From contig JAHJOK010000075.1 in assembly GCA_018820205.1 (NCBI GenBank), forward strand, positions 186,001 to 250,000: 64,000 nucleotides of DNA, given 5' to 3'. Positions 14,537-32,075 of the stretch are shown piece by piece (positions within the stretch are counted from its first letter, which is position 1; each line of letters opens with the position of its first letter). This DNA comes from Alphaproteobacteria bacterium (GTDB taxonomy: Bacteria > Pseudomonadota > Alphaproteobacteria > Caulobacterales > Caulobacteraceae). A program made the position numbers and the translations under genes. Below the pieces are notes generated by a model. That model was not told the DNA's origin. It made no database searches and saw only the letters and a list, made by a program, of their open reading frames with translations.

Positions 14537-14665
14537 CCGTGCATCCCCGCGAAGGCGGGGACCCAGTTCTGTCGTGAGGCGCAATGCGCGGGCCGTCTGA
14601 CCGGGGCGCACACGGCCGCCTGATCGCGCAAAGCACTGGGTCCCCGCCTTCGCGGGGATGCACGG
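14537..14665. repeat. REP/BIME-like inverted pair, family 1 (pgl/zwf)
   Basis: CCGTGCATCCCCGCGAAGGCGGGGACCCAG at 14537-14566 and its reverse complement at 14636-14665. Confidence 0.92.
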
Positions 14666-16159: not shown

Positions 16160-16798
16160 TCAGGCCCCGGCTGTCTCGTGATCGTGTGTGGCCGGTCGCG
16201 CCCGCGACGCCAACACGTCCAGCACGTCCTGAAACGACATTTGACGCGCCCGTAACAGGACCAGCAGATGATAGATCAAATCCGCGGCCTCGCTCGCGAG
16301 TTCCTCGTCCGGTCCGGCGGCGCCGGCCAAAGCGGTCTCCACGCCTTCCTCGCCGACCTTCTGCGCCGCCCGTTTCGGACCCTGGGCCAGCAGTTTCGCG
16401 GTCCAGCTGGTTTCGGGATCGGCCGAGGCGCGTTCGGCGATGGTCGCCTCCAGCCGCGCGATCCGCCCCAGCCCCGGCGCGTCGTCGTCGCCGAAACAGC
16501 TGGTGGTCCCCAGGTGACACGCCGGTCCCATCGGCCGCACCGCCAGCACGATGGCGTCGGCGTCGCAGTCGGCCGTGATCGACACGACCGTCAGCCAGTT
16601 GCCGCTGGTCTCGCCCTTCCGCCACCGCCCGCCGCGCGAGCGGGAGAAGAAGGTCGCCTCGCCGGACTCGATGGTCTCGTCCAGCGCCGCGCGGTCCATA
16701 TAGGCCAGGGTCAGCACCTGCAGGGTGTCCGCGTCCTGCACCACGACGGGGATCAGGCCGTTGGATTTTTCGAAGTCGAGGGTGGAGGGATCGATCAT
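16160..16798 (-). CDS. hisI: Bifunctional phosphoribosyl-AMP cyclohydrolase/phosphoribosyl-ATP pyrophosphatase
   Basis: LAYMDRAALDETIESGEATFFSRSR...WRKGETSG; C-terminal KVGEEGVETALA...EAADLIYHLLVLL. Confidence 0.93.
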   Translation of the reverse strand: MIDPSTLDFEKSNGLIPVVVQDADTLQVLTLAYMDRAALDETIESGEATFFSRSRGGRWRKGETSGNWLTVVSITADCDADAIVLAVRPMGPACHLGTTSCFGDDDAPGLGRIARLEATIAERASADPETSWTAKLLAQGPKRAAQKVGEEGVETALAGAAGPDEELASEAADLIYHLLVLLRARQMSFQDVLDVLASRARPATHDHETAGA

Positions 16799-16806
16799 CT
16801 TAATTT

Positions 16807-16936
16807 CCGTGCATCCCCGCGAAGGCGGGGACCCAGTGCTTTTGTGACGCACCGCGTCGGGGATTGATGTCTGAAACGAACCTGGCCTGTCCGATCGCCC
16901 AAAAACCGGGGTCCCCGCCTTCGCCGGGATGCACGG
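16807..16936. repeat. REP/BIME-like inverted pair, family 1 (hisI/hisF)
   Basis: Copy at 16807-16836; diverged inverse copy at 16907-16936 (TTCGCCGGGATGCACGG). Confidence 0.9.
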
Positions 16937-16948
16937 ATGAAGGGGAGG

Positions 16949-17712
<764 letters not shown>

Positions 17713-17716
<4 letters not shown>

Positions 17717-18447
17717 TTCACCGCCTCGATGGCCTGTCGCGCCGTGAACCGGCCCTCATAGATGGCCCGCCCGACGATGGCCCCGTCGCAGCCGATGGCC
17801 TTGGCCGCGACGATGTCTTCCAGCGACGATACGCCGCCGGACGCCTGGACCTTCAGGTCGGGCCGGCGCCGCACGACCTCGGCCAGCAGCTCCAGATTGG
17901 GACCGGTCAGCGCGCCGTCGCGGCCCACGTCGGTGACCAGCACATGCTTCAGCAGCCCCGCCGGATAGCGATCCAGCGCCGCCCACAGATCCACGCCCGC
18001 CGCCTCGGTCCAGCCCTTCAGCGCCGGGACCGGCACGCCGTCCTCGCCGACGCGCACATCGAAGGCCAGCGTCAGGCGATCGGCGCTGAACCGCTCCAGC
18101 CAGCCGGTCACGACCACCGGATTGGCGACAGCCATCGAGCCGACCACGATCCGCGCCACGCCGGCGTCCAGCAGCCGTTCCACATCCTCGACCGCACGCA
18201 CGCCGCCGCCGGACTGGATCTTCACGTCGATGCTGCCGGCCAGGTCGCCGATCAGTTGGTGCTGCATCGCCTTGCCCGCCTCGGCGCCGTCCAGATCGAC
18301 GACATGGACCCAGGTCGCGCCCTCGGCCGCGAAGGCCGCCAGCCGCGCCGCCGGGACCGCGTCATACTCGGTCGCCTGATCGAACCGCCCGTGCATCAGC
18401 CGCACGCACACGCCGTTCCTCAGGTCGATGGCCGGATAGACGATCAC
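17713..18447 (-). CDS. hisA: Phosphoribosylformimino-5-aminoimidazole carboxamide ribotide isomerase
   Basis: VIVYPAIDLRNGVCVRLMHG; GGGVRAVEDVERLLDAGVARIVVGS; GTG start at 18447. Confidence 0.96.
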
Positions 18448-19040
18448 GCCCCCACCTCCAGAAAGTTGTTCAATATCCGCGCTCCGGCCGACGCCGACCG
18501 CTCCGGGTGGAACTGGCAGCCCCAGCGATTCCCGCTGCGCACCATGGCGGGCACCGAGGCGCCATAGTCGGCGCAGGCGATCGTCGCGTCGGTGTCGGGG
18601 CAGACGTAGGAATGGACGAAATAGGCGTAGTCTCCGTCCCGCACCCCCTCCAGCAGCGGGTCGTCCTTCAGGCCGCGCAGTTGCGACCACCCCATGTGCG
18701 GCACCGGCAGGTCGTCGCGCACCGGCATCCGCGTCACGCGCCCGGGAATGAACCCCAGCATCGTCGCCCCGCCGTTCTCGTCGCTGTCGGCGAACAGCAG
18801 CTGTTGACCCAGACACAGGCCCAGCAGGGGGCGCTCGAAGGCCTTGATGATTGCGGTCAGGCCCAGGACGTCCATCCGCTCCATCGCATAGCCCGCCGCG
18901 CCCACGCCCGGCAGGACGACGCGTTCGGCATCGCGGATGACGCTGGCGTCCGACGTGACGACGACATCGGCGCCCAGCCGCTCCAGCGCGAATTGCACCG
19001 AGGCGGTGTTGCCCGCGCCCAGGTGAACGACGGCGATCAC
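18444..19040 (-). CDS. hisH: Imidazole glycerol phosphate synthase glutaminase subunit
   Basis: LPGVGAAGYAMERM, LLGLCLGQQLLFADSDENGG, GCQFHPERSASAG. Confidence 0.95.
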   Translation of the reverse strand: MIAVVHLGAGNTASVQFALERLGADVVVTSDASVIRDAERVVLPGVGAAGYAMERMDVLGLTAIIKAFERPLLGLCLGQQLLFADSDENGGATMLGFIPGRVTRMPVRDDLPVPHMGWSQLRGLKDDPLLEGVRDGDYAYFVHSYVCPDTDATIACADYGASVPAMVRSGNRWGCQFHPERSASAGARILNNFLEVGA

Positions 19041-19049
19041 GATCCAACA

Positions 19050-19179
19050 CCGTGCATCCCCGCGAAGGCGGGGACCCAGGTTTTAGCGACAACACTACGC
19101 ACGGGATGAATGTCAGTGGCGGATCGGCAAGTTCTGATCGCCCACAGAACGGGGTCCCCGCCTTCGCGGGGATGCACGG
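19050..19179. repeat. REP/BIME-like inverted pair, family 1 (hisH/hisB)
   Basis: CCGTGCATCCCCGCGAAGGCGGGGACCCAG at 19050-19079; inverse copy at about 19150-19179. Confidence 0.9.
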
Positions 19180-19188
19180 AAGAAAACA

Positions 19189-20616
19189 CTAGAGCACCCC
19201 CTTGGTGCTCGGCACCGCATCGCCCTCGACCCGGATCGCCTGTCTCAGGGCCCGGCCGAAGCCCTTGTAGACGGCCTCGGTCTTGTGGTGGTCGTCGTCG
19301 CCGGTGACCGAGATATGCACCGCCGCCCCCATGGCCTCGGCCAGCGAGCGGAACACATGGGCCGTCAGATCGGTGCGGTACTCGCCGATGAAGGGCGTCG
19401 CGAACGTCCCCTCGAACAGCGGATAGGGCCGCCCCGACAGGTCGATGGCGACGTTCGCCTGGGCCTCGTCCATCGCCAGGACGAAGCCGTAGCGCTGGAT
19501 GCCGCGTCGCTCGCCCAGCGCCTGTTTCAGCGCCAGCCCGAGCGCGATGGCGCTGTCCTCGATCGTGTGGTGCGGATCGGTGTGCAGGTCGCCCTCGCAT
19601 TGCAGGCGCAGGCTGAACCCGCCGTGCGCCGCCACCTGCTCCAGCATGTGATCGAAGAAGCCGACGCCCGTCTCGATCCGGATCGGCCCGGCCGCATCCA
19701 GATCGACGGCGCAGACGATGCGCGTCTCCTTGGTGTCGCGCACGGCCTGCCCGACACGGTGCGCCCGCGTCTTGCCGGGCGTCAGGCCCAGCGCCGTCAG
19801 CAGCCGGTCGTTGACCTCGGGCCGGATCGACACCGGCAGACGCAGCCGGTCGCCGGACCGGTCCGCGGCCACGCCGTATTTCGCCAGTTCGCCCAGGGTC
19901 GCGGCGACGTCCGAGGGCCGCGCCATCAGGATCGGCCCGACGCCGCTTTCGACCACCATGACCCGGCCGATCTCGCGCACCAGTCGCTCGCGCTCGCGCC
20001 GAACGGCGGCGATCCGTTCGGCCGTCTCGATCATCCGCGACGAGTCCAGCGCCTGCATCGCCAGCCGCACCAATGGCTCGGGCAGGGCGTAGGGCTCCAC
20101 CACCTCGGCCAGCCGGGCCAGCGTCTCGGTCGTGGCCAGGACCGCGCCGACGCGGGCGCCGGCCAGGCCATAGGCCAGCGACAGCGATCTCAGCACCACC
20201 AGATTGGCGTGGTCGCCGATCAGGGTGGCCGCCGAGGGCGCGTCGGCGAATTCGACCAGTCCCTCGTCCACGACCAGCAGGGCGGGGGCCACCCGTTCCG
20301 CCATCTCGCCGACCGCCTCGGGCGAGCCCAGGGCGCGGATCACGACGGCCGCGCGCTCGCCGTCGGCGGCCCGATAGAGACGCGCCAGCCCGGCATAGGG
20401 TTCCGCATCCGGCGCCTCGACCGATCGGCCGTCGAGGGCGGCGCGCCGGAACACCAGCTCCAGCCCGTGCGTCAGCCCGCGCACCGCCATCACCTGACCG
20501 TCCGCGACGCCATAGATTTGCGCCATCCGCGCCTGCAACGCCGAGGCGTCGCCCGGATAGGCGTCCAGCCCGTCGCCGCCGGCGACGAGGGGAGGATAGG
20601 GGGCGGGCAGGGTCAC
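19189..20616 (-). CDS. hisB: Fusion of a degenerate HisC-like aminotransferase domain to HisB imidazoleglycerol-phosphate dehydratase
   Basis: C-terminal HisB motifs IETGVGFFDHMLEQVAAHGGF, DLHTDPHHTIEDSAIALG, GDDDHHKTEAVYKGFGRAL; N-terminal half has LRSLSLAYGLAGARVG where HisC has LxTxSKAYGLAGxRVG; GTG start overlapping the hisD stop. Confidence 0.88.
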   Translation of the reverse strand: MTLPAPYPPLVAGGDGLDAYPGDASALQARMAQIYGVADGQVMAVRGLTHGLELVFRRAALDGRSVEAPDAEPYAGLARLYRAADGERAAVVIRALGSPEAVGEMAERVAPALLVVDEGLVEFADAPSAATLIGDHANLVVLRSLSLAYGLAGARVGAVLATTETLARLAEVVEPYALPEPLVRLAMQALDSSRMIETAERIAAVRRERERLVREIGRVMVVESGVGPILMARPSDVAATLGELAKYGVAADRSGDRLRLPVSIRPEVNDRLLTALGLTPGKTRAHRVGQAVRDTKETRIVCAVDLDAAGPIRIETGVGFFDHMLEQVAAHGGFSLRLQCEGDLHTDPHHTIEDSAIALGLALKQALGERRGIQRYGFVLAMDEAQANVAIDLSGRPYPLFEGTFATPFIGEYRTDLTAHVFRSLAEAMGAAVHISVTGDDDHHKTEAVYKGFGRALRQAIRVEGDAVPSTKGVL

Positions 20617-21920
20617 GGAACGCTCCTCAGATCCGCCGCCCGCGCGTGGGCCTCCAGCCCCTCCAGCCGCGCCAGACGCGCCGCGATCGGACCCAGCCGT
20701 TCGGCCCCGGCCTCTGTCACCTGCTGCACGGACATGGAGGTCATGAAGCTGGCGGTGGTGATCCCGCCCAGGGTCCGCGCCCCGCCGTCTGTCGGCAGCA
20801 CGTGGCTGGGTCCGGCGGCGTAGTCGCCCAGGGTCTCGGCCGCCCAGCGACCGACGAACACGGCCCCCGCGGCGCGGATCAGGGGGACCAGCGACTCGGC
20901 GTCCTCGGCGTGCAGGGCCAGGTGTTCGGGCCCGTAGAGGTTCGACACCGCGCACGCTTCGGCCATGTCGGCGACCTTGACGGCGCGCGCCTCAGCCAGC
21001 GATGCCCGGGCGATGTCCGCGCGCGGCAGTGTCGCCAGTTGTGCTTCCAGCTCGGCCAGAACGGCGTCGATCGTCGCGTCGCGGTCTGCGACCAGGATGA
21101 CTTGGGCATCGGCGTCGTGCTCGGCCTGGCTCAGCAGGTCGGCGGCCACCAGTTCGGGGTCGCAGTGCCGGTCGGCGATCACCAGCAGTTCCGACGGCCC
21201 GGCCGGCATGTCCACGGACGGACCGTTGGGCAGGGCGGCGGCGTATCGCTTGGCTTCGGCCACGAAGGCGTTGCCCGGCCCGAACAGCTTGTCGCAGGGC
21301 GGAATCTCGCCGTCGTCCAGAACCGCGCCATAGGTCATCGCCGCGATCGCCTGGGCCCCGCCGATCAGCCAGATCGCGTCCAGGCCCGCCTCGGCCGCCG
21401 CCAGGATCATGGCCGGATGGACGCTTCCGTCCTTCGACGGAGGGGTGACGACGACACGGATTTCGACCCCCGCGACCTCGGCCGGGATGGCCTGCATCAA
21501 CAGGGACGAGAACAGGGGCGCCGTCCCGCCGGGCACATAGATCCCCGCCGCGCCGATGGGCCGCCAGACCAGTTTCGACTTCACGCCCGGCGTGGTCTCG
21601 ATGAAGGGCGTGTCCTCTGGCTTCGTCGCCTGATGGAAGACGCGCACGTTCTCGGCCGCGACCCTCAGGGCGCGGGTGTCGGCGGGGGGGAGAGCGTCGC
21701 GCGCCTCGGTCACCGCTTCCGGCGTGATGGCGATCCGGCGCGGCGCGAAGCCGTCGATCTCGGCGCCATATCGCGTGACCGCCGCGCCGCCGGAGATGGC
21801 GACCTGTTCGAAGATGCCCTGCACGACGTCCGCCACGTCGCGCTCGCTGCGTCGGGCCGGGCGGGCCAGGGCGTCCATCCGGCCCTGACCGTCCAGCGAT
21901 GACCAGTCCAGCCGCCGCAT
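20613..21920 (-). CDS. hisD: Histidinol dehydrogenase
   Basis: GPSEVLV-like MPAGPSELLVIAD, GTAPLFSSLLMQAIPA, LSQAEHDADAQVILV, GPSHVLPTDGGARTLGGIT. Confidence 0.95.
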   Translation of the reverse strand: MRRLDWSSLDGQGRMDALARPARRSERDVADVVQGIFEQVAISGGAAVTRYGAEIDGFAPRRIAITPEAVTEARDALPPADTRALRVAAENVRVFHQATKPEDTPFIETTPGVKSKLVWRPIGAAGIYVPGGTAPLFSSLLMQAIPAEVAGVEIRVVVTPPSKDGSVHPAMILAAAEAGLDAIWLIGGAQAIAAMTYGAVLDDGEIPPCDKLFGPGNAFVAEAKRYAAALPNGPSVDMPAGPSELLVIADRHCDPELVAADLLSQAEHDADAQVILVADRDATIDAVLAELEAQLATLPRADIARASLAEARAVKVADMAEACAVSNLYGPEHLALHAEDAESLVPLIRAAGAVFVGRWAAETLGDYAAGPSHVLPTDGGARTLGGITTASFMTSMSVQQVTEAGAERLGPIAARLARLEGLEAHARAADLRSVP

Positions 21921-22801
21921 CACATCATCTTCTCGATCGGCAGCACCAGGATGGCCGAGGCGCCGGCCGCCTTCAGCTTCTCCAGCGTCTCCCAGAAGAC
22001 GGCCTCCTGGCAGACGGCGTGCACGGCGACCGCGTCGTCGCGCCCCATCAGCGGCATCACCGTCGGCGCGCCGGCGCCGGGCAGGATGGCGGTGATCTGG
22101 TCCAGCGCCGAACGCGGCGCGTTCAGCATCACGTATTTGGCGCCCTGTGAGGACACCACGCCCGCCATCCGCTCGATGATCGAATCCAGCAGGTGTTGCA
22201 GGCCGGGCTCCGGCGCCACCGGCGACCGGATCAGCACCGCCTGGCTCTCGAACACCGTCTCCTTGGCCACCAGCCCATTGGCCTCCAGCGTCGCCCCGGT
22301 CGAGACCAGATCGCAGATCGCCGAGGCCAGTTTCAGCCGGGGGGCCACCTCGACCGCGCCCCGCATGACGACGATGTCGGCACGGACGCCCTGCGCATCC
22401 AGATGACGCCGCAGGATCTTCGGATACGACGTCGCGATCCGCAGCCCTTCCAGCGAGCCCGGTCCGGCGTAGTCCAGCATCGGCGGACAGGCCAGTTTCA
22501 GCGTGCATTTGCCGAAGCCCAGCGGCATCACCACCGAAGCGTTCGCCCCGCCGTTCTTGCCTTCTTCCAGCACGTTTTCGCCCACGATCCCCAGGTCGCA
22601 CACGCCATCGGCCACGAAGGTCGGGATGTCGTCGTCGCGCACCCGCAGCAGGTCGATCGGATAGTTCTCGACCTTGTAGAGCAGGTCGTTGGCGCCCTTC
22701 ACGACGCGCAGGCCGGCGTCGCGCACCAGGTCCAGACTGCGGTCGGCCAGACGGCCGGATTTCTGCACGGCGATGCGAAGTCGCCCTTCAACGGTACTCA
22801 T
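21920..22801 (-). CDS. hisG: ATP phosphoribosyltransferase
   Basis: RLRIAVQKSGRLADRSLDLVRDAGL; DIPTFVADGVCDLGIVGENVL. Confidence 0.94.
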   Translation of the reverse strand: MSTVEGRLRIAVQKSGRLADRSLDLVRDAGLRVVKGANDLLYKVENYPIDLLRVRDDDIPTFVADGVCDLGIVGENVLEEGKNGGANASVVMPLGFGKCTLKLACPPMLDYAGPGSLEGLRIATSYPKILRRHLDAQGVRADIVVMRGAVEVAPRLKLASAICDLVSTGATLEANGLVAKETVFESQAVLIRSPVAPEPGLQHLLDSIIERMAGVVSSQGAKYVMLNAPRSALDQITAILPGAGAPTVMPLMGRDDAVAVHAVCQEAVFWETLEKLKAAGASAILVLPIEKMM

Positions 22802-31850: not shown

Positions 31851-31880
31851 CCGTGCATCCCCGCGAAGGCGGGGACCCAA
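31851..31880. repeat. REP-like unit, family 1
   Basis: CCGTGCATCCCCGCGAAGGCGGGGACCCAA. Confidence 0.9.
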
Positions 31881-31920
31881 GTTTGAAAGTTTAAGCCTCG
31901 GCAAGGCCCGCCCATAAATT

Positions 31921-31950
31921 CCGTGCATCCCCGCGAAGGCGGGGACCCAG
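31921..31950. repeat. REP-like unit, family 1, same orientation as the previous
   Basis: CCGTGCATCCCCGCGAAGGCGGGGACCCAG. Confidence 0.92.
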
Positions 31951-32045
31951 GTTGGAACCGGAGCGCCGCCGGCAACCGGTTCGTTCAAGCCCACCCGGCG
32001 TATGCGCCTGAGCAATAACCTGACCGCCTCGCGCGCCGCCAAAAC

Positions 32046-32075
32046 CTGGGTCCCCGCCTTCGCGGGGATGCACGG
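32046..32075. repeat. REP-like unit, family 1, inverted
   Basis: CTGGGTCCCCGCCTTCGCGGGGATGCACGG. Confidence 0.92.

Follow-up and report, generated by a model that had tools for sequence, protein, structure and literature searches.

HisC (TIGR01141; PDB 1gew, 1fg3) is typically a homodimer in which residues of both chains line each active site (PMC4703992). The his genes known to fuse are given in a recent review as hisD, N, B, H, F, I and E, hisC not being among them (PMC10138114), and a review of his genes in the Balneolaceae/Bacteroidales superphylum names only hisIE and hisNB fusions (PMC8305728). In HisNB (E. coli HisB, NF003937) the N-terminal enzyme domain ahead of the dehydratase is a HAD phosphatase, and in the 24-mers of imidazoleglycerol-phosphate dehydratase (IGPD) the N-terminal sheet faces outward (PMC10978614). 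A PLP-enzyme subunit that is retained without its PLP lysine is described in SPTLC1/LCB1 of serine palmitoyltransferase (PMC3794620), which is a subunit of its own and has a proven catalytic partner. Nothing returned from the open-access literature, covered mostly as titles and abstracts, describes HisC-HisB fusions or their inactivation, although earlier reports are possible. Sequence matching to solved structures gave no HisC-HisB fusion, and a plasmid search for the fusion gave only ordinary HisB-half matches. The locus described here lies in a 64,000-nucleotide stretch (the window; G000:C78:186001-250000) of an assembly of 3.27 Mb in 89 contigs that is 92% complete. It encodes a protein, HisC*-HisB, whose N-terminal pseudo-HisC domain lacks the PLP lysine as does LCB1, but is fused to an unrelated enzyme.

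A HisC-derived domain ahead of HisB

The his operon of the window contains the following features.

21920..22801, minus strand: hisG, the first his operon gene (ORF and conserved synteny)
20613..21920, minus strand: hisD, with a 4-base overlap between its stop and the hisC*B GTG start
19768..20616, minus strand: pseudo-HisC domain of HisC*-HisB, residues 1 to ~283 (Pfam/NCBIfam, AlphaFold2, Foldseek, alignment with intact fusions)
20176..20178, minus strand: CTG codon of Leu147, the PLP-lysine position (E. coli HisC Lys214; alignment)
19189..19761, minus strand: HisB (imidazoleglycerol-phosphate dehydratase) domain, complete, residues 286-475 (PF00475, NF003937)
18444..19040, minus strand: hisH (ORF and synteny)
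17713..18447, minus strand: hisA (ORF and synteny)
16949..17716, minus strand: hisF (ORF and synteny)
16160..16798, minus strand: hisIE, bifunctional (ORF and synteny)

As the first-pass annotation had read it, a single minus-strand ORF (19189-20616, 475 aa, GTG start at 20616) encodes a degenerate, aminotransferase-like HisC followed by a complete HisB. Pfam gives only Aminotran_1_2 (residues 100-274, 55 bits against a cut-off of 19.7) and a full-length IGPD domain (PF00475, model positions 1-144/144, residues 316-457, 190.5 bits), and the HAD histidinol-phosphatase N-terminal domain is not found in HisC*-HisB. The NCBIfam HisC model TIGR01141 matches residues 101-249 at 96.5 bits, far under its curated cut-off of 276.55, and on that measure the domain falls outside HisC. 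The best NCBIfam match of the HisB half is the IGPD half of the HisNB-type model NF003937, with nothing ahead of model position 164 matched. HisNB is thus the nearest type to the HisB half and likewise places an enzyme domain ahead of the dehydratase, but where HisNB bears the phosphatase, HisC*-HisB bears an aminotransferase-derived domain.

PLP and substrate contacts are given here in E. coli HisC numbering. The same annotation had placed a CTG Leu codon at the lysine position, a reduced NPNNPTG segment and DEGL in place of DEAY, all of which hold in the alignment. The E. coli HisC segments 8-34 (the N-terminal arm), 120-132 and 149-163 are absent from pseudo-HisC, Asn157 and Pro158 are deleted, Tyr187 is replaced by Leu, and the GADE motif reads GLTH. 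K246 is the sole lysine in residues 1-280, and there is therefore no nearby replacement for the PLP lysine. Ser213, Tyr55 and Asp85/Glu86 we take to be cofactor contacts in the E. coli HisC structure. From the list of conserved HisC active-site residues (PMC4703992), the PLP contacts Asp117 (=184) and Arg155 (=222) and the substrate-binding Arg259 (=335) are kept. The PLP contact Ser146 (=213) is kept as well. Pseudo-HisC therefore resembles HisC in fold, sequence ancestry and operon slot between hisD and hisB/hisH, but is without the PLP lysine, Asn157, Pro158, Tyr187, Asp85/Glu86 and the N-terminal lid.

The window also carries nine copies of the palindromic repeat TCCCCGCGAAGGCGGGGA, against 0.05 expected, which form REPIN-like inverted pairs with 28-34 nt arms (sites at window positions 14537-14665, 16806-16937, 19050-19179 and 31851-32075). 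The his operon itself holds two of the pairs, one in the spacer between hisC*B and hisH and one between hisF and hisIE. The hairpins just 3' of the hisB stop differ among Brevundimonas (window 19041-19188; L067, L079, L084, L110, L111), and in L060, L083 and L112 the hisC*B-hisH junction is without a hairpin element. Unrelated repeat families have apparently inserted repeatedly at this junction in Brevundimonas.

Distribution and origin of the fusion

The fusion, or clear pieces of it, is present in ~32 of 36 sampled same-genus genomes. All 23 diverse Brevundimonas scored have Leu at the Lys column, and Leu147 is therefore not a sequencing error. Named Brevundimonas records carry the same SLSLAYGLAGARVG sequence, which places the host in that genus. 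In a family-wide sample, pseudo-fusions are also found in a sister genus group (g24), where Phe or Tyr takes the place of the lysine, and in a shorter form in a further genus (g19), whereas in most other genera HisB is a separate protein and of another type. An intact HisC-HisB fusion occurs in one genus member (G148) and in one Brevundimonas-labelled MAG (L089).

Catalytically complete fusions, which carry the GADE, NPTG, DEAY and SK motifs, are found in Robiginitomaculum, Hellea, Marinicaulis, Sphingomicrobium nitratireducens, Bacteroidales and Balneolaceae, and the families that hold them include Robiginitomaculaceae and Parvularculaceae. The lysine is present in 7/7 intact fusions tabulated. 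Among 289 genomes sampled class-wide, five, from four other alphaproteobacterial families, contain intact fusions, a sixth being a partial match. The gene order hisG-hisD-[C-B]-hisH-hisA-hisF-hisIE, exactly that of the window, recurs in the examined Caulobacterales, Sphingomicrobium and Bacteroidales loci, and the HisB halves throughout this lineage have the HisNB-type model as their best match. Five Balneolaceae and Bacteroidales loci (L102, L103, L105, L113, L127) carry a fused HisC-HisB that is apparently intact.

The intact fusions thus have the domain order, operon and HisB type of HisC*-HisB, but retain all catalytic motifs in the HisC half. Such agreement in sequence and gene order indicates that HisC*-HisB descends from an intact HisC-HisB fusion, that is, from the his operon's own HisC, fused while active and inactivated later. 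Independent capture of a HisC-like gene as a new domain is ruled out by the shared synteny and by the alignment with intact fusions.

A tree of the HisB domain alone is too poorly resolved within the family, and relationships were taken from a seven-gene operon tree (the HisB half and the other six his proteins). In this tree the Caulobacteraceae pseudo-fusions form one clade adjoining the intact G148/L089 fusions, on a branch of moderate support (94; 74/81 with a simpler model), and the Maricaulaceae forms are a separate clade (support 100). Brevundimonas and g24 have in common the derived states Glu86 to His, Thr211 to Ser and Asn298 to Pro as well as the loss of the arm. These shared states and the operon tree fit a single inactivation in this group, most likely in the common ancestor of Brevundimonas, g24 and g19, and the HisC active site was lost in at least two lineages, Caulobacteraceae and Maricaulaceae.

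The first-pass annotation had argued that a catalytic HisC would be needed elsewhere, and the host does have a separate intact HisC (G000:C11:45396-46445, 293.7 bits, above the TIGR01141 cut-off), with dnaX and a DUF2125 gene as its neighbours. Each of the 34 pseudo-fusion genomes checked has a separate HisC that passes this cut-off, whereas in 9 of the 12 intact-fusion genomes the fusion is the only HisC above it (Fisher p = 2e-7, relatedness not corrected). The separate HisC is of a different type, with weak local similarity to pseudo-HisC (best stretch ~41% over 73 residues). It is kept in three complete (~100%) Brevundimonas genomes (G015, G036, G140) in which no IGPD gene was found and which, from their gene content, are probably histidine auxotrophs; its retention there suggests that it has another job, plausibly aromatic transamination.

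In some relatives the fused domain is reduced further. The N-domain has shrunk to ~190-220 residues in G068, Woodsholea and G043, and the Woodsholea N-domain model (pLDDT ~50-86) gives a weak match to part of HisC (127 columns, E 0.025). In a Maricaulis sp. MAG (HCUG1438-2; L137 2660-4549) a single 630 aa frame joins HisD (TIGR00069, 468 bits) directly to HisB (IGPD), and the HisC part is gone. Since it is eroded in the former and lost in the latter, pseudo-HisC is not universally needed. Another pseudo-HisC-HisB, with the different damaged motif RSLAPYGLTDAPCG, is present in a MAG labelled Hydrogenophilaceae (L114 2607-3972); its operon groups with Caulobacteraceae, and the label or the binning of the contig is for this reason doubtful.

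Constraint on pseudo-HisC and its possible roles

The dN/dS of pseudo-HisC in close pairs is mostly 0.08-0.24, with 0-1 indels, compared with 0.13 and 0.17 for the fused HisC of two intact fusion pairs. Close-pair values are quoted because synonymous sites of wider pairs are probably saturated, which probably raises dN/dS there (median 0.35). Relative to HisB, pseudo-HisC changes ~3-fold faster (median dN ratio 2.8), and 70/280 columns of the N-domain are invariant in 23 members versus 122/190 of HisB. The AlphaFold2 model is confident (pLDDT 90.3, pTM 0.85), and Foldseek matches that of pseudo-HisC to HisC 1gew (TM 0.74 by target length), so that the domain is predicted to keep the fold-type I aminotransferase fold. 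The substitution rates indicate purifying selection. Together, the dN/dS values, the invariant columns and the HisC-like model argue that the fold is under constraint; pseudo-HisC looks like coding sequence constrained to hold that fold and not like an unconstrained tail. The pseudoenzyme reading of the first-pass annotation is therefore supported by HisC ancestry, loss of the catalytic PLP lysine and maintenance by selection, and the domain would lack transaminase activity.

We consider it probable that HisC*-HisB derives from the hisC and hisB of its own his operon, inactivated after redundancy, and that pseudo-HisC now serves the folding and assembly of HisB without catalysis. The two genes would have fused while both halves were active, and a second, separate HisC would then have made the fused HisC dispensable in an ancestor that Brevundimonas, g24 and g19 share. 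The fused HisC would subsequently have lost its N-terminal arm, the NPTG stretch, the residues of the cofactor-phosphate loop and the PLP lysine. By that time the HisB half may have adapted to bearing the fold, which could not simply be dropped, and histidine synthesis would run on the separate HisC. As the N-terminal sheet faces outward in IGPD 24-mers (PMC10978614), the HisC remnant would sit on the shell, as a module at the outside of the HisB oligomer.

A gain of function by pseudo-HisC is fairly unlikely in our estimate. It would take the form of a regulatory or channelling role, through non-covalent binding of PLP/PMP or of a phosphorylated intermediate, or through LCB1-LCB2-like pairing with the separate HisC, and at the surface of the HisB 24-mer it would link the output of HisB to HisC. 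We regard as decidedly unlikely that the domain is an idle passenger, kept only because in-frame loss that spares HisB is rare, with purifying selection acting against misfolding. Its faster change relative to HisB, the stepwise erosion in G068, L114, Woodsholea and G043 and its full replacement in the Maricaulis MAG are in agreement with idleness, but its dN/dS falls in the range of intact fused HisC, indels are almost absent across Brevundimonas, and a quarter of its columns (the 70/280 above) do not vary among 23 diverse members.

Little credence can be given to a regulatory sensor, in which the domain would modulate HisB by binding PLP/PMP or a phosphorylated intermediate of the pathway non-catalytically. 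Asp184, Ser213 and Arg222 are kept in 23/23 Brevundimonas and in almost all g24, which makes non-covalent PLP binding possible, and Arg335 and Tyr55 are kept in 22/23 and 21/23 Brevundimonas, respectively. However, active-site positions in Brevundimonas are retained at 5/9 versus 30/62 for other ancestral near-invariant positions, Arg335 and Tyr55 are lost in g24, and neither group has the N-terminal lid or Asn157. That the remnants are no better kept than other positions, together with the losses in g24, argues against a conserved ligand sensor, and the histidinol-phosphate or imidazole-acetol-phosphate sensor proposed in the first-pass annotation is not borne out. Of the structural or regulatory role it had offered more broadly, we infer the structural part in preference to ligand sensing, and the regulatory part finds no support in the active-site remnants, which are not preferentially kept.

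Very doubtful, in turn, is a heterodimer in which pseudo-HisC pairs with the separate HisC, tethers it to HisB and hands over imidazole-acetol phosphate. HisC sites are built from both chains (PMC4703992), LCB1 in serine palmitoyltransferase provides a precedent (PMC3794620), and Brevundimonas largely keeps Tyr55, which crosses the dimer interface, and the PY motif; set against this, the separate HisC is of a different type, similar at best over the one 73-residue stretch, and g24 has lost Tyr55. A sequencing or assembly artefact at 20176-20178, or a lysine displaced nearby, is ruled out by the Leu in 23/23 relatives and by K246 being the only lysine in residues 1-280.

Pseudo-HisC is the inactivated half of a fused enzyme and has most likely been kept for a structural role. 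The hisC slot of this operon holds a readable series, from intact HisC-HisB through pseudo-HisC-HisB with the fold kept and a heavily eroded remnant to replacement by HisD, and the passage from bifunctional enzyme to dead domain is explained by a redundant second HisC. For annotation, the hisC-slot gene in the his operon of Brevundimonas is not to be taken for the pathway aminotransferase. Why a fused enzyme domain outlasts its chemistry becomes testable here in culturable bacteria.
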